A stretch of DNA of 61,463 nt from Candidatus Eiseniibacteriota bacterium (GTDB lineage Bacteria > Eisenbacteria > RBG-16-71-46 > CAIMUX01): positions 1-61,463 of the forward strand of contig CAIMUX010000027.1 in the NCBI GenBank assembly GCA_903844735.1. The letters run 5' to 3'. Positions 3,189 to 29,444 of the stretch are shown here, piece by piece. Below the pieces are notes generated by a model. The model was not told the DNA's origin. It ran no database searches and was given only the letters and a program-made list of their open reading frames with translations. Positions within the stretch are counted from its first letter, which is position 1. Each line of letters begins with the position of its first letter. The translations under genes were made by a program, and so were the position numbers.

Positions 3189-4858
3189 ACGCCCGCCACC
3201 AGGTCGCCTTTCTCCAGGTGGTACCGCACTCGCTGAATGAAGTAGCCCCCCAGCGCGCCATCCACGACCCGGTGGTCGTACGAAAGGCTCAGGTACATGA
3301 TGTCGCGCACCGCGATCGCCTCACCCAGCACGACCGGCCGCTTCACGATGGCGCCCGCGCCGAGGATGCCGACGTTCGGCTGGCTGATGATGGGCAGCCC
3401 GAAGAGATTTCCGTAGCCACCCATATTGGTGACCGCGAAGGTCCCGCCGGCAACCTCATCCGGCACCAGCTTCTTTGCGCGGGCGCGGGCGGCGAGGTCA
3501 GTGATGGCGCGGGCGATACCGAGAAAGTTCTTCTCCTCCGCGTGCTTCACCACGGGAACAATCAGTCCGTTGTCGAGAGCCACGGCCACACCGATGTTGA
3601 CGAAGCGCTTGACCAGGATGTCGGTCCCTTCCACGGAGGCGTTCATCATCGGGTAGTCGAGGAGCGCCTGCACCGTCGCCGCCACGATGAACGGCGTGTA
3701 CGTCAGCCTAAACCCGTACTTCTGTTGGAACTCACCCTTCGTCGCCTCGCGGTAGCGGACGATACCGGTCATGTCGCACTCGGTGACCGAGGCGACATGA
3801 GGCGAGGTCGCCTTGGACCGCACCATGTGCTCGGCGATCCGCTGGCGCATGATATCCATCTTGATCACTTCGATGGGGCCGTCGCCGGTACTGCGCGTCT
3901 CGGCAGCCGTGTAGGCCGGATACGGCTTGAACTTCACTTCACCGCCGCCGGAAGGGCCGAAGAAGGAGACACCGGGGAGCACCCCGCCGGCCGAAACAGG
4001 CCCGGCCACACCCGGCGCGCCGGAGGTCGCGGGGGAGAGGGTCGGAGAAGCGAGGGGAGAGACCGTCTGGGCGCCAACCGCCGGCGCACCCGCGGACAGC
4101 GCCGCGGAGGGACCGGCCGGCATGCCGGCAGCAGCCGGCGAAGCAGGCGCACCGCCCCCGCTTGCGCGGGTCGCGACATAGGATGCGAGGTCGTCTTTCG
4201 TGACCCGCCCATCGCGTCCCGTGCCCCGGATTCCGGCCAGTTCGGCGACGCTGACCCCTTCGACGCGGGCGATGGAGCGGACGAGCGGCGAGTAGAAGCG
4301 CTCGCCGTCATGGCGCGGAATCGGACCACCGCCGGCCATCGGCGGAACGGGCGGCGACACCGCCGGCGCCGCCGCAACAACGATCGGGGCGGGTACCGGG
4401 GCCGATGGGATCAGCACCGGAGAGGGAGCGGAAGCAGGTGTCGGTGAGGGCGCGGCCGCGACCGGCGGTTCGGCCGTCGGCGATGGTGACGATGGCCGTG
4501 TGACAGGCGGTGCCGGTGCCGCCGTGGCCGGCGGCGGCGGCGGGGTGGCCGCCGGAGAAGGTGCGGGGGCCTGCGCCGAAGAGGGTGCCGCCGGAGCGGA
4601 AGCGGCCACCGCATCGCCCGCCTCTGTCTCGATCACGGCGATGACCTGCCCCACCGGAATCGTCTCCCCCTCCCGGGCGCGAATTTCCACGAGACGGCCC
4701 GCGGCGGGCGAGGGGATCTCCGAGTCGACCTTGTCGGTGGAGATGTCGAGGACGTTCTCGTCCCTCGCCACCAACTCGCCGATCTTCTTCGTCCAGCGGA
4801 CGACCGTCCCTTCCGTGATGCTCTCGCCCATCTGGGGCATGACCATGTCGACCCGCAT
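3185..4858 (-). CDS. 2-oxoacid dehydrogenase E2, dihydrolipoamide acyltransferase
   Basis: The 557-residue E2 core of a 2-oxoacid (probably branched-chain) dehydrogenase complex. An N-terminal lipoyl domain occupies residues 1-80, with the lipoylated Lys43 in [10 protein letters not shown] long Pro/Ala linker follows, then a peripheral-subunit-binding domain near residues 185-225 ([16 protein letters not shown]...GRVTKDDL), a second Gly/Pro/Ala linker, and a catalytic acyltransferase domain of about 230 residues ending with the active-site [13 protein letters not shown] (HXXXDG). There is one lipoyl domain. It lies between the fused E1 (48 nt upstream) and lipA (4-nt overlap). Branched-chain rather than pyruvate specificity is inferred from the E1 type; the sequence alone does not prove it. 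Confidence 0.95.
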
Positions 4859-4906
4859 CTCTTCCCGCCTTTCCGTTCAGTCCCGGCCGACGACGCGGCA
4901 CGGTGA

Positions 4907-7033
4907 TCAGTAACCCGCCAGCTCCTCGCAGGCGGCGATCAGCCCCGCCGTCTGCGGCAGAATCCGTTCCTCGAGAAACCAGTTATACGGGATCGGCGTG
5001 TCGGCACCCGCGAACCGGCGAACCGGCGCGTCGAGGTGGTCAAACGCCATCTCGGCGATGCACGCGGCAACCTCCGCTCCGAATCCGCCGAAAACTCCGT
5101 CCTCATGGGCCACAACCACGCGCCCGGTCTTGCGCGCGCTGGTCAACACCGTCTCCACATCGAGTGGCACCATGGTGCGCAGGTCGATCACCTCGACCGC
5201 AACACCGCGCTGTCCCATCGCCTCGGCGGCATCCAGCGCCCGCTTCACCATGGAACCGTAGGTCACGATCGATAGGTCCGTCCCCGGCCGCACCACCCGC
5301 GCCACGCCCCACGGCAGGAGGAACTCCTCATCCGGTTCCGGCGCCGCGGCGTAGATCTGCCGGTAGAGCCCCTTCGGCTCTAAGAACAGGTACGGATCGT
5401 CGCCGCGGATGGCCGACTTCAGGAGCCCCTTGGCGTCCGCCGCCGTACTCGGGTAGCCGATGTAGAGCCCGGGAAAGTGGCTGAAGGTCGCCTCGATGTT
5501 CTGACTGTGGCAGAGCGCTCCGTGAATGTAACCGCCCACCGGCACGCGGATCACCATGGGACAGGCCCAGTGGTTGTTCGACCGATATCGCATCGTCGAG
5601 AGTTCGTTACGAATCTGCATCATGGCGGTCCAAATATAGTCCCCAAACTGAATTTCGATGATCGGTTTCCACCCCTTGACCGCCATGCCGATGGCGGTGC
5701 CGACGATCGACGACTCAGCGAGCGGCGAGTTCCAAACCCGCTCGGGGCCGAAACGCGTGGAAAGACCCGTGGTCGCGGTGAAGACGCCCCCCTTCTTGTC
5801 CTCAATGTCCTCACCATAGACGACGATCCGCTCGTCGCGGTGCATCTCCTCGGTAAGGGCGTGGTTGATGGCGTCGACGAGGAACACCTGGCTGCCGGTG
5901 TTGCCGCGCGGCTCGGGGGACGCGCCTGCGGGCGGGATGTACCGCGCGTGGCTGAAGACGTGGTTCTTCGCCGTGGTCGGATCGGGGAAGGGAGCAGCGG
6001 CGGCATCGTCGGCCGCATCGTCCACCAGCCGCTGCACGTCCGCGCGGGCCGCCTCGAACTCGGCTGGAATACACACGCCGCGACCGATCAGCTCGGCCTC
6101 GAGGAGCAGGATCGGATCACGCACGAGGTCGGCGTCAAGCTCCTCGGCCGAACGGTACTTGGCCTGGTTGTCCGATGATGAGTGCGGGAGAAGCCGCACT
6201 ACATCCGCGTCGATGAGGGTCGGTCCGTCGCCGCGCCGCGCCCGCGCCACCGCAGCCTTCGCCGCAAAGAGCGATGCATGGAAATCAGTACCGTCAATCT
6301 TCGCGCGGTGGAGGCCGGGGTAGCCGCCCACCATCTCGTAGACACCGCCCCCGGCGAGTTGCTGCTCGATCGGGACCGAGATGGCGTATTTGTTGTTCTG
6401 AATGCAGAAGATCACCGGGAGCTTCTCGCGGCTGGCCCAGTTGAGCGCTTCGTGGAAGTCACCCTGAGCGGTGGTCCCCTCGCCCGAGGAGACATAAACC
6501 ACCTCGTCGCTTCCCTCGCGCCGGACGGCAAGGGCGGTGCCGACGGCCTGGAGAAACTGCGTGCCGGTGGGACTCGACTGCGAGACGATGCGAAGCCTCC
6601 GATGGCCGTAGTGGGCCGGCATCTGCCGCCCGCCCGAATTCGGGTCGTCGGCCTTCGCGAGGAAGCAGAGGAGTATCTCGCCCGCGGTCATCCCCAACTG
6701 CAGCACGAACGCGAGGTCCCGATAGTACGGATAGGCCCAGTCCCTCCCGGGCCGCAGCGCCAGGGCGACCGCGGCCTGTACGGCTTCATGACCGGAGGCC
6801 CCGATATGAAAGAAGCTCTTCCCCTGCCTGAGCAGGATAAGCATCTTCTCGTCGAGTCGGCGCGTGAGGAGCAACGTGCGGTACGCACCGCGCAGATCGT
6901 CGGGCGTCGGTTCCACCGTCTCGTCCACCCGCCGACGCCCCACCGCTTCCTCTGTCCGTGGGCGGGAGACACCGCGAGGCCTTTCCGCCCGATCCCCTCC
7001 CTCCGTCACGCCCGACATTCCGCGCCCCTCCAC
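4907..7033 (-). CDS. Fused alpha/beta 2-oxoacid (branched-chain) dehydrogenase E1
   Basis: One 708-residue chain carries both E1 subunits. The alpha half (about 45-350) has FHIGASGHEAVQ, the thiamine-diphosphate region SSGEGTTAQGDFHEALNWAS...NNKYAIS (Glu replaces the usual Asp of GDG), and the phosphorylation-loop-like RLLPHSSSDN. The beta half (about 385-708) has YGEDIEDKKGGVF, FGPERVWNSPLAESSIVG, GDYIWTAMMQI and the C-terminal NWFLEERILPQ. Fusions of this kind are known for branched-chain-type E1. The listed start overlaps lipB by 28 nt. A better-supported start is the internal ATG at 7018, preceded by GGAGGGG, which overlaps lipB by 13 nt. E2 follows after 48 nt. Confidence 0.95.
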   Translation of the reverse strand: MEGRGMSGVTEGGDRAERPRGVSRPRTEEAVGRRRVDETVEPTPDDLRGAYRTLLLTRRLDEKMLILLRQGKSFFHIGASGHEAVQAAVALALRPGRDWAYPYYRDLAFVLQLGMTAGEILLCFLAKADDPNSGGRQMPAHYGHRRLRIVSQSSPTGTQFLQAVGTALAVRREGSDEVVYVSSGEGTTAQGDFHEALNWASREKLPVIFCIQNNKYAISVPIEQQLAGGGVYEMVGGYPGLHRAKIDGTDFHASLFAAKAAVARARRGDGPTLIDADVVRLLPHSSSDNQAKYRSAEELDADLVRDPILLLEAELIGRGVCIPAEFEAARADVQRLVDDAADDAAAAPFPDPTTAKNHVFSHARYIPPAGASPEPRGNTGSQVFLVDAINHALTEEMHRDERIVVYGEDIEDKKGGVFTATTGLSTRFGPERVWNSPLAESSIVGTAIGMAVKGWKPIIEIQFGDYIWTAMMQIRNELSTMRYRSNNHWACPMVIRVPVGGYIHGALCHSQNIEATFSHFPGLYIGYPSTAADAKGLLKSAIRGDDPYLFLEPKGLYRQIYAAAPEPDEEFLLPWGVARVVRPGTDLSIVTYGSMVKRALDAAEAMGQRGVAVEVIDLRTMVPLDVETVLTSARKTGRVVVAHEDGVFGGFGAEVAACIAEMAFDHLDAPVRRFAGADTPIPYNWFLEERILPQTAGLIAACEELAGY

Positions 7034-21325: not shown

Positions 21326-21610
21326 GTGAGAAGAGTCCTCAATGTCAAGGCCTTGCCGGGATACCGGGTGGAGCTGGAATTTGACGATGGTGTATGCGGC
21401 GTCGTGGACCTCTCCGAAGCCGTCGGCAAAGGCGTGTTCGCCCTGTGGAGCAACCCGCTTCTCTTCGAACGGGTTCGTATTGGCTCATCCGGCGAACTGG
21501 TTTGGAGCGACCGCATCGATCTGTGCCCCGATTCGCTCTACCTCAAGGTGACGGGCAAGAAACCGGAAGACATCTTCCCCGCACTGCGGGACCAGCCCAC
21601 CCATGCCTGA
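21326..21610 (+). CDS. DUF2442 domain protein
   Basis: The 94-residue product matches the DUF2442 pattern: an N-terminal RVLNVKALPGYRVELEFDDGV, central VVDLSEAVGKGVFALWSNPLLFERV, and late WSDRIDLCPDSLYLKVTG. GTG 21326 has GAGGAGGAG upstream. DUF2442 genes are often paired with DUF4160 genes, as here, where the downstream gene overlaps by 8 nt. Such pairs behave like small mobile two-gene modules and are suspected toxin-antitoxin systems; no activity can be read from the sequence. Confidence 0.85.
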   Translation: MRRVLNVKALPGYRVELEFDDGVCGVVDLSEAVGKGVFALWSNPLLFERVRIGSSGELVWSDRIDLCPDSLYLKVTGKKPEDIFPALRDQPTHA

Positions 21611-21863
21611 AATCAGCCGTTTCCTGGGCATCGTCATCAAGATGTTCTTCGATGATCACGACCCGCCGCACTTTCATGCGGAGTACGGCGAGGACCTTGC
21701 CCTGATTGATATTCGAACGCTGGCCGTGTTCTCCGGCCGGCTGCCGCCTCGAGTCACTGGCCTGGTGATCGAATGGGCGACCCTTCATCAGGGGGAGCTG
21801 CTCGCCGATTGGGGCATGGCTCGTGCGAGGGAGGAACTCCGGAAGATCGCCCCGCTGGAATAA
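21603..21863 (+). CDS. DUF4160 domain protein
   Basis: The 86-residue product starts MPEISRFLGIVIKMFFDDH and contains DHDPPHFHAEYGE (the conserved H-x-PPHFHA-Y core), then ALIDIRTL, FSGRLPP and VIEWATLHQGELLADW. This is a standard full-length DUF4160 protein. Its start overlaps the end of the DUF2442 gene by 8 nt, so the two are co-translated. It converges on citG, whose stop is 64 nt away. Confidence 0.88.
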   Translation: MPEISRFLGIVIKMFFDDHDPPHFHAEYGEDLALIDIRTLAVFSGRLPPRVTGLVIEWATLHQGELLADWGMARAREELRKIAPLE

Positions 21864-21926: not shown

Positions 21927-22955
21927 TCAGGGGTTTCCCGCCCGATCCCGCACAGCCGCCAGCGCCAGCACCAGAGCCAGGCAGTCGGCCACCCCCCCCA
22001 TGGTGAGCCGTTGGGCGCGGTACTCGTCGTTCCACTCGGCGAGAACCGGCCGCGGATCATCACCTTGATCGAGTAGCACCCGGAGCGCGGCGCCGTCGCG
22101 GCGGAGGCGCGCCAACCCGGCCACGCCACAGCGCGCCACAGCCGTGGTGTCTTCTACGCTTTGCATCAACGCGGCCAGGGCGTGAAATGCCGCCAGGTCC
22201 TTGCCGGCAGCCAGGTACGCGGGTAGCCCGGCTTCGAAGACCGATGGCAACCCCGCGAGCGCTTCCGCCCGGACGCCACCGAGACCGTGGGCCTCACGCA
22301 CCCGGACGCCCGGTCGGTCCGCGTCGGGCAGAGGGGTGACGGCGAAGAAAGCACGAGCGACGGACACGATGGCGCGCCGCAGCGCAGTCTGTTGCACGGT
22401 CTCTCCGGGGATTCCGTGGTCGGGCGGCGTTCCGATCACAGCGGCCTCCGCGCCATCTTGACGGGCCAAGTCGCACGCGGCCAACAGCAACAGCCCGGAG
22501 AGAAAGATGTACCCCCGATGGGCGTTCGTACCGATCGCCTTCTCCATCCGGGACTCGGCTCGGCGCCCGGCTTCGATACAGGCCGCGAGGGGCCACACAT
22601 CCTCCGGTTGACCGGGACCGATCCGTAGCCGGATCAGTTCCTCGTAGTACAGGGGAAGCAACTCGATCGACTGCACCATCCGCGCGTGGTCCAGATCGGG
22701 ATGGGACCCGTTGTCGTGCCGGTCTACCAGACCGGGCTTGGGGGTCAGGTCGACCTCGGCACGGGCACCTTGCACCAGAGCCTCGGCCAGGGCATGGGGA
22801 TCGAGCCGGCCGATCAAACGAGGACCCGCAGGGGCGGCTCTTCGCAACCGGGCCGGATCCTGCCGCCTCGGCTCTTGCGGATCATGCCGAACCCCCAACC
22901 GGGAGGGGAAATCGACCTGCGACCCGATGCCGGTCCGGATATCGAGTGACTGCAT
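21927..22955 (-). CDS. citG: Triphosphoribosyl-dephospho-CoA synthase (CitG/MdcB type)
   Basis: CitG makes 2'-(5''-triphosphoribosyl)-3'-dephospho-CoA, precursor of the citrate lyase prosthetic group. Conserved blocks are ARAEVDLTPKPGLVDRHDNG, SHPDLDHARMVQSI, GTNAHRGYIFLSGLL and VREAHGLGGVRAEALAGLPSV. The core begins about 50 residues into the listed 342-residue frame. The N-terminal part is Arg/Pro-rich and may not be translated; TTG 22817 is a possible internal start but lacks a ribosome-binding site. Last in the PPC-citE-citF-citX-citG series, 180 nt after citX. Confidence 0.9.
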   Translation of the reverse strand: MQSLDIRTGIGSQVDFPSRLGVRHDPQEPRRQDPARLRRAAPAGPRLIGRLDPHALAEALVQGARAEVDLTPKPGLVDRHDNGSHPDLDHARMVQSIELLPLYYEELIRLRIGPGQPEDVWPLAACIEAGRRAESRMEKAIGTNAHRGYIFLSGLLLLAACDLARQDGAEAAVIGTPPDHGIPGETVQQTALRRAIVSVARAFFAVTPLPDADRPGVRVREAHGLGGVRAEALAGLPSVFEAGLPAYLAAGKDLAAFHALAALMQSVEDTTAVARCGVAGLARLRRDGAALRVLLDQGDDPRPVLAEWNDEYRAQRLTMGGVADCLALVLALAAVRDRAGNP

Positions 22956-23135: not shown

Positions 23136-23813
23136 CTACCCCGGCCGGTGCCTGTTGCAGCGGGGTTCTCCGGTCCCGTGACGGTCGGTCCCGTCCCGCT
23201 CCCCCGCGGCTTCATTCCCAAACACCGCCACCGCCAGCAGCAACGCCTCCACCCGGGTCCAAAGCTCCGCCTCGCCATGCCGACCCAACCGCATACAATC
23301 GCGAGCCGGCTCATCACAGACGAGGCAAGTGCGCTCCGGTAGCCCCACAGCCCGCCGGGTCACCGGCCGCCCGCCGGCATCGTACACATCGAGATCCAGG
23401 AGTCGTCCCCACGGCACGTCCGACTCGAAAACCACGCACAGCTCCTTCATGCGCCGAGGCTCGGTGGCCGCGGCGAAGAACAGGAACTCACCCAGAATGT
23501 CTTCACCATGGTCATGCGGAAAGGAGAATGCGGTGAACGGCGCACCGGTTGCGCCTACTGGCAGCGACGGCTCCTGATCGAGCGCGAGTGCCCCCGACCA
23601 GGGCAACTGCAGCATCGCCATACCGGCCCCGACCAACCGCTCCGCGCCGGCGGGCCTCTTGTCGGGTCCGGGAATGACCGTCGAGACAGCAACAACGCAG
23701 CCGCTGTCACCAGCGCGACTCAAGAAGGAATCGAGCCTGGCCTGCCGGGCATCCCGCGCCGCGAGTAGGACGCGCCGGACTTGGGCCAAATCGACGGCTG
23801 CCTCACGAGACAT
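23136..23813 (-). CDS. citX: Apo-citrate lyase phosphoribosyl-dephospho-CoA transferase (CitX)
   Basis: CitX attaches the prosthetic group to the acyl carrier subunit CitD of citrate lyase. The 225-residue sequence carries the family blocks DARQARLDSFL, STVIPGPDKRP, FESDVPWGRLLDLDVYD and RAVGLPERTCLVCDEPARDC (conserved Cys pair and R-CL-C). The C-terminal 20 residues after AVFGNEAAG are basic and poorly conserved. Presence of both CitX and CitG implies that a CitD-type acceptor exists in this organism, yet no citD is seen in the window. Confidence 0.93.
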   Translation of the reverse strand: MSREAAVDLAQVRRVLLAARDARQARLDSFLSRAGDSGCVVAVSTVIPGPDKRPAGAERLVGAGMAMLQLPWSGALALDQEPSLPVGATGAPFTAFSFPHDHGEDILGEFLFFAAATEPRRMKELCVVFESDVPWGRLLDLDVYDAGGRPVTRRAVGLPERTCLVCDEPARDCMRLGRHGEAELWTRVEALLLAVAVFGNEAAGERDGTDRHGTGEPRCNRHRPG

Positions 23814-23909: not shown

Positions 23910-25451
23910 TCACCCTTCCTTGACCTTCCGCACGACATCGATGATCGACCCGTCCCGGTACTCGATGAGCGCCACCACCTCGTCCTCGAACTCGACCGGA
24001 CGCGGCACGCCGGTAAGTTTCGTGATTTCCTCGTGCAGCTCGCGGATCCCCTTGACCGGAAGGCGCCGCTTCACGAGCTCCTTCTTCAGCTCCGCGTGCT
24101 TGTCAGCCACGGCGATCCCCCGCTCGGTGACGATGACGTCCACGGTCTCGCCCGGCGTGGTGATGGTGGTCACCTCCTCGCGGATGATCGGCAGTCGCCC
24201 GCGGATCGAAGGTGCCACGACGACGGCTAGCTTGGCGCCGGCCGCGGTGTCGCAGTGCCCGCCCGTATTGTGCAGGAGCAGGCCGTTCGACTCGGTGTTG
24301 ACGTTCACGTTGAAGTTGACGTCCACTTCGGTCGCCCCAAGGATGACGCAGTCGAGGCGGTTGACCACGCAGCCGCGGTTGAACGGGTTGGCGTACAAAT
24401 CGGCGCTGATCTCGCGGTGCATGAGGGTGCGGCCGAGCGACTGCACCGCCTTGAGGTCGAAGCACTGCACGTCGAAGAGGGTGTGAAAGAGCCCTTCCTC
24501 CAGCATGTCGACAAAGTAGCCGGTGATCCCGCCGCAGCCGAAGCTCCCCTTGATCTTGAGCTCGCGCATCCGGTTGCGCACGTTTTCCGCCACCGCCAGG
24601 GAGGTCCCGCCCGCGCCGGTCTGGAAGGAGAAGCCGTCGCGGAGCAACCCCGCAGCCTCGATCACCTCGGAGGCGTAACGAGCGATCAGCAGCCCCGCCG
24701 GATCGCGGGTCACCCGCGTGGTGGTGGAGACGATCTTTTGCGGGTCACCGAGGGAGTCGATCTTCACCACCCAGTCAACATCGCTCTGGGAGATGCTCAC
24801 CGGCGAGGCGGGATACGGAACCAGGTTGTCGGTCACCGCCACCACCTTGCGGGCGTAGCGCGCGTCGGTGTAGGCGTAGCCGAGGCTGCCGCAGGCGGAA
24901 GGTCCTTGCACTCCGTTCAGGTTGCCGGTCTCGTCGCAACAGGGTGCGGCCAGGAACGCCACATCCACTGTGACATCGCCCGCGACGATCGACCGCGCGC
25001 GCCCGCCGTGGCTGCGTACGACAATCGGAAAGTCCAGCTCGCCCTTGCTGACCAGCTCACCGATCAGGCCGTTCACGCCGGTCTCGCAGCGGGTCACGGT
25101 GCCGTTACGGATCTGCGGAATGATCTCGGCGTTGACCGGGTGCACCGAGCTCGACGCCACGCAGAGATCACGGATCCCCATGGCGTCGCACTCCTGGATC
25201 ACGAGGTTGAGCAGCCGGTCCCCGTTGCGGAGATGATGATGGGTGGAAATGGTCATGCCGCTCTCAAGCCCGCACTTCTCGATCGCCTCGTGCAGCGAAC
25301 CGAGAAGCTTGCTGTCCCACGGGGTGCGACGTTCCAGCGGGCGAGTGCTGCGCTGCACCGCGGGCATGCGGGACCAGGGGTCGATGTACGGTTCGTAGTC
25401 GACGCCCTTCCAGTTCGCCGGGATCTCGCGGCCAAGACTATTCCTTGCCAT
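23910..25451 (-). CDS. citF: Citrate lyase alpha subunit (citrate CoA-transferase)
   Basis: The 513-residue CitF swaps the acetyl group on the carrier for citrate. Family blocks are GVDYEPYIDPWSRMPAV, TISTHHHLRNGDRLLNLV, SSSVHPVNAEIIPQIRNGTV, AAPCCDETGNLNGVQGPSACGSLGYA, DGFSFQTGAGGTSLAV, GSFGCGGITGYFVDMLEEG and TESNGLLLHNTGGHCDTAAGAK. Full length. Start overlaps the end of citE by 14 nt, and citX follows 96 nt downstream. It is expected in a cytoplasmic CitDEF complex. Confidence 0.96.
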   Translation of the reverse strand: MARNSLGREIPANWKGVDYEPYIDPWSRMPAVQRSTRPLERRTPWDSKLLGSLHEAIEKCGLESGMTISTHHHLRNGDRLLNLVIQECDAMGIRDLCVASSSVHPVNAEIIPQIRNGTVTRCETGVNGLIGELVSKGELDFPIVVRSHGGRARSIVAGDVTVDVAFLAAPCCDETGNLNGVQGPSACGSLGYAYTDARYARKVVAVTDNLVPYPASPVSISQSDVDWVVKIDSLGDPQKIVSTTTRVTRDPAGLLIARYASEVIEAAGLLRDGFSFQTGAGGTSLAVAENVRNRMRELKIKGSFGCGGITGYFVDMLEEGLFHTLFDVQCFDLKAVQSLGRTLMHREISADLYANPFNRGCVVNRLDCVILGATEVDVNFNVNVNTESNGLLLHNTGGHCDTAAGAKLAVVVAPSIRGRLPIIREEVTTITTPGETVDVIVTERGIAVADKHAELKKELVKRRLPVKGIRELHEEITKLTGVPRPVEFEDEVVALIEYRDGSIIDVVRKVKEG

Positions 25452-26361
25452 GGATCACCTCGTCGGAGAGTTCGTAGTCGACGAGGCCGAACGCCTTCGC
25501 TGTGCGCAGGATGCGCGCGGCCCGTTTCACTACCGGGGCATCCACCATCTTCCCCCGCAGCGAGATGACGCCCGTGCCCATCTGCCGGGCGCGCTGGATC
25601 GCTTCCATGACCTCGAGCGCGTCGTCGATCTCCTCTTTCTTGGGGCGGAAGACCTCGTGCACCACCGGGATCTGGCGAGGATTGACCAACGACTTGCCGG
25701 TGAAGCCGAGTCCCTTGACGAGCTCGGTCTCGCGACGCAGCCCGTCCATGTCGTTCACGTCCGCGAAGATCGAATCGATCGCCTGCAGCCCGGCTGCCTT
25801 GGCGGCCCAGACGATGCGTGTGCGGGCGTTGAACAGCTCCGTCCCCTCTTTGGTGCGATGAATCTCCATGGACGCCGTGTAGTCTTCGGCGCCGAAGGCG
25901 AGAGCCACGATGCGCGACGAGGCTTGCGCCACTTCGACGCAGTTGAGCACGCCGACAGCGCTCTCGATGGAAGGGATGATCGTAAACCACCCGATCGGCA
26001 GGCCCAGCTTCTCCTCCGCCTCCGTGAGAATCGTGTCGAGCTTTTCCACTACATCGCGGGTGTCGGCCTTGGGCAGGCGGATCCCGTCGGGTTTCGCGGG
26101 CAGCACCTCGCGCAGGTCACCGAGAGCGTACTTGGTATCGAGGGCGTTGATGCGGACGAAGATCTCCTTCTCGCGGTCGGGGAGGAGGCGGAGATAGTTG
26201 CGGGCCAACACGCGGGCGGCATCTTTCTCCGCCAGCGGCACGGCGTCCTCAAGATCGATCATCACGCCGTCCGCCTCGAAGACCGGGATGTTCTGAAGCA
26301 TCCCCGGCATGTTCCCGGGGACGTAGAGGAGTGTGCGACGCAGCCGGTCCCGCCCGTTCAC
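25438..26361 (-). CDS. citE: Citrate lyase beta subunit (citryl-ACP lyase)
   Basis: The 307-residue TIM-barrel lyase cleaves citryl-carrier to acetyl-carrier and oxaloacetate. Key regions are RTLLYVPGNMPGMLQN, GVMIDLEDAVPLAEKDAAR (metal-binding Glu/Asp), RINALDTKYALGDL, IRLPKADT, IIPSIESAVGVLN, ALAFGAEDYTASM and GKSLVNPRQIPVV. It overlaps both neighbours (4 nt with the PPC-domain gene upstream, 14 nt with citF downstream), so the three are translationally coupled. In typical operons the gene directly before citE is citD. Confidence 0.95.
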   Translation of the reverse strand: MNGRDRLRRTLLYVPGNMPGMLQNIPVFEADGVMIDLEDAVPLAEKDAARVLARNYLRLLPDREKEIFVRINALDTKYALGDLREVLPAKPDGIRLPKADTRDVVEKLDTILTEAEEKLGLPIGWFTIIPSIESAVGVLNCVEVAQASSRIVALAFGAEDYTASMEIHRTKEGTELFNARTRIVWAAKAAGLQAIDSIFADVNDMDGLRRETELVKGLGFTGKSLVNPRQIPVVHEVFRPKKEEIDDALEVMEAIQRARQMGTGVISLRGKMVDAPVVKRAARILRTAKAFGLVDYELSDEVIHGKE

Positions 26362-26834
26362 GGCTGCTCTCCCTCGAAGTAGAGCGTGTCGATGCCGCCG
26401 GCCTCCGAGCGCTGGCGCTCCACGCCTTCTACGATGTATTCGGACAGCACCACCTCGCAGGTCGCGAAGACCTCAGCCTCGAAGAGGTGCCCACCCACCA
26501 CCTCACCGGACGACCGGGACCCGAAGATGTGCAGGTGCGGGTCGGGCCGGCCGCCGGGGCCGGGAACGAGGTTTCCTTCGATGCCGATCAGGTCGAGCGG
26601 CCCCTCGATGCTGTGCACCGGCATGCGGGGCTCGGTAATCGGCAGGTGGGCCCCCGCCTGGATGTCGCTGAAGGTGACATTGCGCACCGACCCGATGGCC
26701 GAGATCATGACGCCGTGCTTGAGCTCGACATGTTCCGCGAAGAGAACGATCTGCCGTACCAGCAAGCTCCCGGGCGGGATGCGGAGTATGAAGCGGCGGC
26801 CGTCGCGGCACTCGCGGTAGGAAAAGCTGTCCAT
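26358..26834 (-). CDS. PPC/DUF296-domain protein in the citD position
   Basis: The 158-residue protein is almost entirely one PPC (plant and prokaryote conserved, DUF296) domain: RIPPGSLLVRQIVLFAEHVELKHGVMISAIGSVRNVTFSD, GIEGNLVP, PDPHLHIFGS (conserved PHLH), and VVGGHLFEAEVFATCEVVLSE (GGHL...A-VF-T-E). Some PPC proteins carry AT-hooks and bind DNA; there is none here, so a metabolite-binding or enzymatic role is as likely. It is the first gene of the citrate lyase operon and overlaps citE by 4 nt, exactly where the 10-kDa carrier gene citD normally lies. It has no CitD-like features and no obvious prosthetic-group Ser. Confidence 0.88.
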   Translation of the reverse strand: MDSFSYRECRDGRRFILRIPPGSLLVRQIVLFAEHVELKHGVMISAIGSVRNVTFSDIQAGAHLPITEPRMPVHSIEGPLDLIGIEGNLVPGPGGRPDPHLHIFGSRSSGEVVGGHLFEAEVFATCEVVLSEYIVEGVERQRSEAGGIDTLYFEGEQP

Positions 26835-26843
26835 GATGCTCGG

Positions 26844-26912
26844 TTACTCCTCTTCGGCCCGACGCAGGGCCATCCGGAGGAACGATACCACGGTCGGATC
26901 GGCGGGCTCCAC
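26844..26912 (-). other. Possible 22-codon ORF or decayed gene end upstream of the PPC gene
   Basis: In the otherwise gene-free 26835-27123 interval a minus-strand GTG at 26912 opens VEPADPTVVSFLRMALRRAE and ends 9 nt before the PPC start, its last codons supplying GAGGAG. Just upstream a second frame reads ILLKVGLEIFLS. Joined by a frameshift they resemble the end of a helical protein, so this may be the tail of a broken gene, or a short leader that couples translation. Divergent promoters for the PPC and NifX-like genes must also lie here. Confidence 0.25.
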
Positions 26913-27123
26913 GAGAGAGGAAGATCTCCAGGCCCACCTTCAGCAGAATCGTCGACTCGGCCCGCCGAAAAGTAGCCGACGCGCTCGTTCACGGAAAGTC
27001 CCTCCGGATCGAGGGTGGTCCTATTCGTCAGGGAGCCCGCCGGTGCTGCCGGTTGCACGACCGACCGGCGAAGCGATCGACACCAGAATGCCGTGGCAGG
27101 ACTCTGCCAAAAGAGAGGTCCCG

Positions 27124-27498
27124 ATGAACATCCGCATCCCCGTCAACGAAGACCAAGGACTCAGGAGCCCGGTGTGCGGACACTTCGGTTCGGCGCCGTT
27201 TTTCATGATCGTCGACACCGACACCGGAACCTGCCGGGCCATTGCGAACACCAATCAGCACCACGGTCACGGAATGTGCACGCCCCTGGCGGCACTGAGT
27301 GGAGAGAGCATCGACGGCATGGTCGTCGGCGGGATCGGTGGGGGCGCGCTGAACAAGTTGGTCGCCGCGGGAATACGGGTGTTCCTTTCGGAGCAGTCGA
27401 CCGTGGAGGAGACGGTGACCGCGTACAAGGCGGGGACCCTGCGCCCGGTGACACCCGAGATCGCCTGCGGTCAGCATCACGGGCACGACGGCCACTAG
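27124..27498 (+). CDS. NifX/NifB-C-terminal-like (dinitrogenase iron-molybdenum cofactor) family protein
   Basis: The 124-residue single-domain protein starts MNIRIPVNEDQGLRSPVCGHFGSAPFF, typical of the NifX/NafY/NifB-C fold that binds iron-sulfur or metallocluster precursors. It continues with GGIGGGALNKLVAAGIRVF and a late TVEETVTAYKAGTL. The family's HFG core is present, and the C-terminus has a His-rich CGQHHGHDGH tail plus an internal HHGHGMC, suggesting metal binding. ATG 27124 follows AGAGAGG. No nif genes are near. Stand-alone members are common in anaerobes, with unknown role. Confidence 0.9.
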   Translation: MNIRIPVNEDQGLRSPVCGHFGSAPFFMIVDTDTGTCRAIANTNQHHGHGMCTPLAALSGESIDGMVVGGIGGGALNKLVAAGIRVFLSEQSTVEETVTAYKAGTLRPVTPEIACGQHHGHDGH

Positions 27499-27527: not shown

Positions 27528-27679
27528 CGCTCTATCGATCCACCTCTCTCGGACCTTGCGCGGCGTTCCGACGCGAGATCCGGCACTTTCTCCCGGCGGG
27601 AGAGTCGTCGCAAGCATTAGCAGATCAGGAACACAATTCGCGATAACATCCGTATCGCTTCTCTCGCTTCCTCCCTTAT

Positions 27680-27695
27680 ATTCGTTTACGCGAAT
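27680..27695. promoter_or_regulatory. Inverted repeat at the arsR promoter
   Basis: ATTCG-TTTACG-CGAAT is a clean inverted repeat directly after a TATATT -10-like hexamer (27677-27682) and 23 nt before the arsR start. Its location over the likely transcription start and its symmetry suit an autoregulatory operator for the ArsR-family dimer encoded next. No good -35 is visible. Confidence 0.5.
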
Positions 27696-27717
27696 GGATG
27701 GACAGGCGGGAGGAAGC

Positions 27718-28122
27718 ATGAAACGGCCCAGTCCCGAGGAGATCGAGCTGCTGCACGGAAGGCTCTGCCAGGCTCTGGCGGATACGACCCGCATTGCGGT
27801 GCTCTACGAACTGGCCGCCGGGCCTCGCCATGTCACGGCACTGGTGGAAGCACTCGGGCTGCCCCAGGGTACCGTCTCCCGCCATCTGCGTGTCCTCCAT
27901 CAACGGGGTCTGGTGGTCACTCACCGGATCGGAACGAAGATCGAGTACCGGCTCAAGGACGAGCGGGTCGTCCAGGCCCTGGATCTTCTGCGCGCTCTGC
28001 TCGCCGATCAGTTGGAGCACGAGACGGCCCAAGCCGCCCGGATCCGGGCGGCAAAGAAGTTCACGCGCGGGCAGGGCAGCCAGGCTCGACCGCGCAAGAC
28101 GCGAACCACGGAGGTCCCATGA
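27718..28122 (+). CDS. ArsR/SmtB-family winged-helix regulator
   Basis: The 134-residue DNA-binding repressor-type protein has an HTH core from about 10 to 90: LCQALADTTRIAVLYELAAGPRHVTALVEAL, GLPQGTVSRHLRVLHQRGLVVTHRIGTKIEYRL. Only one Cys is present (in GRLCQAL), so it lacks both the metal-binding CXC and the two-Cys persulfide switch of BigR/SqrR-type ArsR proteins; its signal is unknown. ATG 27718 with GGGAGGAAGC upstream is preferred over ATG 27694, which lies in the operator. It is first in the sulfur/cytochrome cluster and overlaps the FadL-like gene by 4 nt. Confidence 0.9.
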   Translation: MKRPSPEEIELLHGRLCQALADTTRIAVLYELAAGPRHVTALVEALGLPQGTVSRHLRVLHQRGLVVTHRIGTKIEYRLKDERVVQALDLLRALLADQLEHETAQAARIRAAKKFTRGQGSQARPRKTRTTEVP

Positions 28123-29444
28123 GATCCCTACGATCCCTGTTCCTGGCCGGCTTGGCCGCATCTGTCCTCTGTCCCGCCGCCCACGCCACCAACGGCATGA
28201 ACATGATCGCCTATGACGCCGTTTCCGCCGGCATGGGGGGCGCCGATGCTGCCGTGGAGACAGGATGCACAGCGGTCGCGGCCAATCCCGCCAACCTCTC
28301 GACTCTCTGCAAGAGCTCGCTGGTGGTGAACCTTTCGCTCCTCGCGCCCAAGATCGGTTTCGCCAACACCTCGATGTCCGGTGCCAACGACCTGGACGGC
28401 AAGAGCCAGATCTTTCCACTGCCCTTCCTCGGGTACGCCAATCGAGTGGGGGAAAGCGGACTGGCCTGGGGCTTGGGCCTCTTCGCCCAGGGCGGGATGG
28501 GCGTCGACCTGCGCGATGTTCACACCAATTTCGGCACGAGCGATCGGATCTATTCGAACGTCCGCTACATGCGCCTCGCGCCGACGCTCTCCTATGCCGT
28601 AACCGAGAAGCTCGCCCTCGGCGCTACGGTGCACGCCGGGTATTCGGACATCGCTTACAAGTTCTTCCCGAAGACGAGCTACTACAGTCCCGGACAAGAT
28701 GACACGCCGGGCACCGCCGACGACATGGCCTTCCCCGGGCAAGCGCTGAAAGGGGCCAGGAGCCTGGGTGTCGCCTTCCGCGCCGGCGCCCGCTATGAAG
28801 TCACGCCCAAGCTCTCCTTCGGCGGGACCTACACTTCCAAGTCGACGCTCGACTACAAAAACGGCGATCTCGACATGAACTTCACGGCGATGGGGCTGGG
28901 CCCGGTGCGATACGACGCTTCCGTAGACGGGTTCGATTGGCCCGCGGCCGTCGAGGGTGGAGTGGCGGTAAAGCTGCTCGAGAACACGTTGACCATCGCG
29001 GGAGACGCACAGTGGATCAACTGGTCCGACGCCCTCAAGACCGTCACCGTCAAGGGCGACAGCCCCGACAACCCGAATGCCGCGCCGTCGGTGCAGATCC
29101 CCTTCATCTTCAACTGGGACGACCAGATGGTCTACGCCGCGGGCGCCGCCTGGGCATTTTCCGAACGCGACATCGTTCGTGCGGGGTACAACTTCGCCTC
29201 GAACCCGATCCCTGATGACTGTGTCTATCCGCTCTTCCCAGCGACGACGGAGAGCCACGCGACGGTCGGTTATGGCCGGTCCTTCAATCGCGTGCTCGTT
29301 GACCTCGCCTACGAGCACGCGTTCGAGAGCAAGGCAACAAACTCGAACACCAACCAGATGGAGAACCCGTTCGGTCCGGGGGACCGGATCACCCACGCAC
29401 AGAACACCCTCCACGTGGCCGTCACCTACAAACTGCAGGACTGA
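28119..29444 (+). CDS. FadL/OmpP1-family outer-membrane transporter
   Basis: The 441-residue beta-barrel has a signal peptide (SLFLAGLAASVLCPAAHA) and a mature N-terminus TNGMNMIAYDAVSAGMGGADAA, the N-terminal hatch motif of FadL (TNG...G-G-A). AVAANPANLS follows, then alternating strands to a terminal aromatic-poor VAVTYKLQD. FadL-type channels bring hydrophobic compounds across the outer membrane. Coupled by overlap to the ArsR gene and followed immediately by the cytochrome lipoprotein, it may admit a hydrophobic or aromatic/sulfur substrate for this system. Substrate unknown. Confidence 0.9.
   Translation: MRSLRSLFLAGLAASVLCPAAHATNGMNMIAYDAVSAGMGGADAAVETGCTAVAANPANLSTLCKSSLVVNLSLLAPKIGFANTSMSGANDLDGKSQIFPLPFLGYANRVGESGLAWGLGLFAQGGMGVDLRDVHTNFGTSDRIYSNVRYMRLAPTLSYAVTEKLALGATVHAGYSDIAYKFFPKTSYYSPGQDDTPGTADDMAFPGQALKGARSLGVAFRAGARYEVTPKLSFGGTYTSKSTLDYKNGDLDMNFTAMGLGPVRYDASVDGFDWPAAVEGGVAVKLLENTLTIAGDAQWINWSDALKTVTVKGDSPDNPNAAPSVQIPFIFNWDDQMVYAAGAAWAFSERDIVRAGYNFASNPIPDDCVYPLFPATTESHATVGYGRSFNRVLVDLAYEHAFESKATNSNTNQMENPFGPGDRITHAQNTLHVAVTYKLQD

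Follow-up and report, generated by a model that had tools for sequence, protein, structure and literature searches.

The locus analysed here raises the question of how a citrate lyase, the enzyme that splits citrate into acetate and oxaloacetate, is supplied by an operon in which citD is not seen and a gene for a PPC/DUF296 protein stands directly before citE. The window, by which we mean the whole 61,463-nucleotide stretch of DNA that was analysed, corresponds to contig C27 in a draft MAG of 5.40 Mb (142 contigs, 95.8% complete, 4.99% contamination). On its minus strand lie the PPC/DUF296 gene (26358-26834; 158 aa; PF03479 [PCC], E=3.2e-22), which is gene 3 of a seven-gene operon type described below; citE, for the citrate lyase beta subunit (citryl-carrier lyase; 25438-26361; GTG start; PF03328, E=6.5e-60); citF, for the alpha subunit (23910-25451; PF04223, E=6.6e-173; TIGR01584, 643 bits, above the cut-off); citX, for the holo-carrier synthase (23136-23813; Pfam CitX, E=4.9e-30; TIGR03124 below the cut-off); and citG, for a triphosphoribosyl-dephospho-CoA synthase of the MdcB/CitG type (21927-22955; profile match). 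The profile matches thus bear out all four cit genes that the first-pass annotation had listed. The best TIGR match of CitE was TIGR01588, which at 348 bits falls short of its equivalog cut-off (443), and CitE is 60 to 78% identical to the CitE proteins of the operon clade defined below. The window holds the only CitF of the whole genome, and its PPC is likewise the genome's only PF03479 protein. PPC had been described as fused by overlap to citE; the two genes do share 4 nt (GTGA at 26361-26358), and this is an overlap, not a fusion.

The earlier statement that no CitD-like frame is present from 21.9 to 27.1 kb held up. A six-frame PF06857 search of the whole genome returned no citD in the window, its sole match being on another contig, and the CitD proteins of the clade, used as queries in a relaxed search over 21.5-28.2 kb, gave only noise. 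Upstream of PPC, in the place that citC-citD occupies in relatives (26835-27123), no remnant was found. Beyond this interval, divergent from the PPC operon, are genes for a Nitro_FeMo-Co domain protein (27124-27495, plus strand) and then for an ArsR-type regulator and a FadL-type porin (27556-29444, plus strand), and farther on genes for an Rrf2 regulator and then a multihaem cytochrome c (PF11783; 30880-32741, plus strand). At the other end of the operon, adjoining DUF2442 and DUF4160 genes (21326-21863, plus strand) are convergent with citG; pairs of the DUF2442/DUF4160 type are often listed as toxin-antitoxin-like.

To see how related operons are organized, 84,980 species genomes were scanned with an alignment of CitF, and the best 80 loci, ranked by likeness to the window CitF, were taken as the sample. 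Thirteen of these best 80 (L015 to L026 and L028) share a clade with the window, their CitF proteins being 68 to 77% identical to that of the window. In 11 of the 13, the gene order is citD-PPC-citE-citF-citX, in most cases with citC ahead and citG behind; among these PPC loci, citC was undetected in L021 and L022 and citG in L017. L015 (Opitutaceae) and L023 (Accumulibacter) are the two exceptions: in them, citD directly precedes citE, citD-citE-citF-citX-citG is kept, and no PPC was found elsewhere in the genome. None of the 67 loci outside the clade among the best 80 had a PPC match. To regard the position of PPC as the proper place of citD is mistaken for this operon type, in which PPC stands between citD and citE.

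A PPC alignment was searched against the Geomonas phylum and family, the Propionivibrio class and family, and a broad set of genomes related to that of the window. The matches separated cleanly: all those with E values below 1e-60 sit between citD and citE, and those of 1e-15 to 1e-30 do not adjoin cit genes. Besides the window's, 36 PPC proteins belonging to this type were collected, a set that includes the 11 clade loci and some loci from the same genome. Every one of them is directly flanked by citD and citE, so that the linkage to citE, proposed earlier as something to look for, does recur in other genomes. PPC of this type occurs in 18 of 48 genomes of the Geomonas family; in the window's phylum, the search gave one weak match, in one other genome. 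PPC was not found on plasmids, and a comparison by eye of the flanks of six clade operons revealed no other conserved neighbor common to them. The citD-PPC and PPC-citE gaps are mostly about -8 to +20 nt, leaving out some citD-PPC values of 264 to 288 nt that are artefacts of locating the citD stop, and spacing this tight implies coupled translation. We conclude that one clade of citrate lyase operons has PPC as a conserved accessory gene. As far as we searched it is undescribed, and the literature search found no paper linking citrate lyase with the PPC domain or DUF296.

Two variants of operon structure were also seen. A Rhodocyclaceae MAG (G062) carries the PPC-citE operon twice (L095 and L103), and the PPC scores of the two are equal; the second has citD, with citC undetected upstream. 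In relatives of the window genome, four loci encode CitD and CitE domains in one frame (L007, 2-1327, plus strand; L009, 3078-4286, minus strand; L010, 1204-2535, minus strand; L012, 782-2068, minus strand), with PF06857 followed by PF03328 in the three of the four on which Pfam was run; these are fusions in another citrate lyase type.

The window clade has full support in the CitF tree (100/100). Three changes are needed to account for the distribution of PPC on that tree; in the simplest history, PPC was gained once, at the base of the clade, and lost twice. In the PPC tree, all PPC proteins of this type form one group with moderate support (83/94), and the window and L028 are sisters in both trees (99/96 for PPC and 100/99 for CitF). 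Since the clade spans several phyla, namely, Myxococcota, Thermodesulfobacteriota, Pseudomonadota, Verrucomicrobiota (where PPC was lost), and the window's own, the operon probably moved laterally.

PF03479 extends over the whole of the window PPC (residues 13 to 133, profile positions 1 to 115 of 117, 79.5 bits against a cut-off of 25). The predicted structure (mean pLDDT of 81.5) matches solved PPC structures with Z scores of 17 to 18, and the protein shares with the single-domain PPC/DUF296 proteins AF0104 (2h6l), PH0802 (2dt4), and LmiA the PF03479 domain and the His-X-His...His arrangement, here H100, H102, and H116. In contrast to these proteins, it belongs to a distinct group that, where found, is always in a citrate lyase operon. 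This group is set apart by invariant R70, H74, S109, G137, and S143, and R13, R70, H74, E127, E132, and R140 are kept in all 37 of its members. The His triad is complete in 33 of the 37 and has Gln at position 116 in three more; in L028, it reads Gln, Tyr, and Arg. The L028 protein (5614-6081, plus strand), the nearest relative of the window's, has thus lost all three metal-site His residues and kept the other invariant residues. Judging from these four proteins, the metal site would not be essential in every member. We infer that PPC is soluble, has a metal- or ligand-binding pocket, and is not a DNA-binding regulator.

Our lead guess, a tentative one, is that PPC may be a metal-dependent accessory enzyme acting on a product of the pathway, perhaps as an oxaloacetate decarboxylase. 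It rests on the acidic character of the protein, its coupling to citE, the His triad in 33 of 37 members, and the acetolactate decarboxylase-like predicted fold (Z of 8.0 to 10.1, root mean square deviation of 3.9 to 4.6 over 125 to 135 residues). The particular activity is suggested by oxaloacetate being a beta-keto acid and by the relation of the fold to PTD012 (Z of 4.8, other rows being at or below 4.3). PTD012 (C11orf54) is a beta-ketogulonate decarboxylase that binds Zn through three His residues and is structurally related to acetolactate decarboxylase (PMC12435205). Unlike the fold, the sequence gives no detectable match to these enzymes: Pfam returned PF03479 only, a PDB profile search found PPC proteins only, and the triad is lost in some of the cit operon proteins. 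A modeled fold that resembles those of decarboxylases would not in itself prove activity.

The distribution of the Na+-pump oxaloacetate decarboxylase (OAD) bears on this guess in two ways. Its beta subunit (PF03977, a family that also covers related decarboxylases) is absent from seven PPC-containing genomes, including the window's, and present in six, and PPC is therefore not a simple OAD substitute. The triad is intact in all seven PPC-containing genomes lacking PF03977, and the three degenerate triads in the genomes checked all occur together with PF03977 (p of ~0.07, with kinship ignored); the PPC-less genome G059 lacks PF03977 as well, so that this pattern is no more than suggestive. Against an enzymatic role stands the absence of PPC from two complete-looking operons, L015 and L023.

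Other roles have to be weighed against that of an accessory enzyme. It is possible, though doubtful, that PPC regulates transcription of the cit operon, in keeping with the usual annotation of PPC proteins as putative DNA-binding proteins and with the titles of the solved relatives; the Escherichia coli PPC protein LmiA, which has a three-His site, has been reported to be a positive regulator (PMC7667037). However, neither an AT-hook, a helix-turn-helix, nor an added DNA-binding domain was seen in the 158 residues, the pI was 5.2 to 6.9 (acidic to neutral) in all 12 PPC proteins tested, and among the conserved residues is a group-specific set of polar ones. The third position of seven, tightly coupled between two structural genes, would also be an unusual place for a regulator. 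That PPC is a noncatalytic subunit serving the structure or assembly of the citrate lyase complex must likewise be put on the doubtful side. Its unvarying position, with citD and citE on either side, the tight spacing, and the co-inheritance would all fit such a subunit, for which loss of the triad in L028 would be unproblematic, but PPC is absent from L015 and L023, where citD-citE-citF-citX-citG is kept, and from every other citrate lyase in the sample.

We regard it as unlikely that PPC is a citrate lyase deacetylase or modulates the enzyme in some other way, by turning it off or by shielding the acetyl-carrier thioester. An inactivating citrate lyase deacetylase was reportedly characterized biochemically from phototrophic bacteria by Giffhorn in 1981 (as cited in PMC11204750), and PPC adjoins citD and citE, the former encoding the carrier. 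The fold relative PTD012 hydrolyses p-nitrophenyl acetate (PMC12435205). The loss of the His triad in L028 speaks against this role.

There remains the carrier itself. That citD might be elsewhere had been one of the two options offered by the first-pass annotation, and the whole-genome search located it: the genome has one citD, encoding 97 aa, on contig C106 (4611-4901, minus strand; PF06857 match at 4620-4859, E=1.3e-26), directly downstream of citC (408 aa; PF08218, E=5.2e-54), the citC-citD pair occupying 4608-6161 on the minus strand. The carrier-serine motif AGTMQSSD is intact and aligns with the prosthetic-group serine region of the clade CitD proteins; it is this serine that carries the prosthetic group. 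The protein is 60 to 74% identical to CitD of the same operon clade and mostly 30 to 51% identical to CitD elsewhere. The tetranucleotide composition of C106 correlates with that of the genome at 0.951 and 0.956, compared with 0.913 to 0.967 for the genome's own contigs left out singly; ten loci from other genomes reached no more than 0.905. Given this agreement in composition and the intact citD, the carrier would very probably be supplied in trans. The missing citD is moved, not replaced.

The citCD pair lies 4.6 kb inside the 45-kb C106, and PPC-citEFXG is in the middle of the 61-kb C27; this is the sole genome seen in which the two parts are apart. Just 3' of citD (C106, 3313-4446) is a mosaic of truncated genes, comprising a response regulator's end, the initial third of a patatin, and a CusB/EmrA-like piece, which looks like a rearrangement scar at the spot where PPC would follow citD. 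This mosaic, together with the 4.99% contamination of the MAG and the fact that the split rests on one assembly, could also be taken to mean that C106 citCD is contamination or part of a chimeric contig, the true genome either lacking citCD or having it beside PPC in an unassembled copy. We consider this very unlikely, as C106 agrees with the genome in composition, there is no further CitF or PPC that a foreign operon would have brought, and the genes upstream of PPC on C27, a long contig, are unrelated ones. That PPC replaces CitD as the carrier or a core subunit of a CitD-less citrate lyase, as the window without citD could suggest, is hardly credible, since a full citD with the carrier-serine motif is in the genome, citD adjoins PPC in 36 of 36 other loci, and PPC contains no CitD-like carrier motif.

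The anatomy that we favor is thus a split operon with PPC as an accessory gene, not a CitD replacement, and we hold this to be likely. The ancestral order would have been citC-citD-PPC-citE-citF-citX-citG; since PPC stands between citD and citE in relatives, the window holds the PPC-citEFXG part of this seven-gene operon, and citC-citD would have been separated to the C106 region in this genome. The CitD carrier and the acetylating ligase CitC would then act in trans on an otherwise ordinary citrate lyase. PPC would be an accessory gene dedicated to a single citrate lyase clade, co-inherited with the operon, translationally coupled to citE, and dispensable, having been lost in two members. The modified citrate lyase imagined in the first-pass annotation, in which PPC had a regulatory or structural part, accordingly fares unevenly: replacement falls away, with no carrier motif in PPC and an ordinary citD beside it in relatives, whereas a role tied to citrate lyase gains support because the PPC-citE linkage is conserved. 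A citD elsewhere in the genome, combined with a PPC-citE linkage that is not conserved, had been named as what would speak against the proposal; citD is indeed elsewhere, and conservation of the linkage contradicts the second part.

All of citC, citD, citE, citF, citX, and citG are in the genome, each half in the usual relative order, and from its gene content the genome is predicted to encode an ATP-independent CitDEF-type citrate lyase with the maturation genes citC, citX, and citG. These are the same six genes as in the citCDEFXG operon of the Klebsiella, E. coli, and Leuconostoc type, from which the window genome differs in the extra PPC before citE and in having citC-citD apart. The Geobacter bemidjiensis citCDEFXG cluster spans Gbem_3862 to Gbem_3856, seven locus tags for six named genes (PMC2996986). 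It comes from the same bacterial family as operons with PPC between citD and citE and, unlike that of the window genome, is intact; no seventh gene is named in the passages found of that paper, and given the excess of tags over names, PPC is presumably the unnamed one.

PPC/DUF296 proteins occur widely in prokaryotes and have been annotated as DNA-binding on little direct evidence. The fixed place amid citD and citE in several phyla provides the PPC family with a defined pathway and a few testable activities, such as soluble oxaloacetate decarboxylation or citrate lyase deacetylation, and the tempting CitD-less reading of the missing citD is corrected. We tentatively raise the possibility that the clade carries its own PPC-family Zn-dependent oxaloacetate decarboxylase, or a citrate lyase deacetylase; if true, this would establish a catalytic function for prokaryotic proteins that are generally annotated as DNA-binding.
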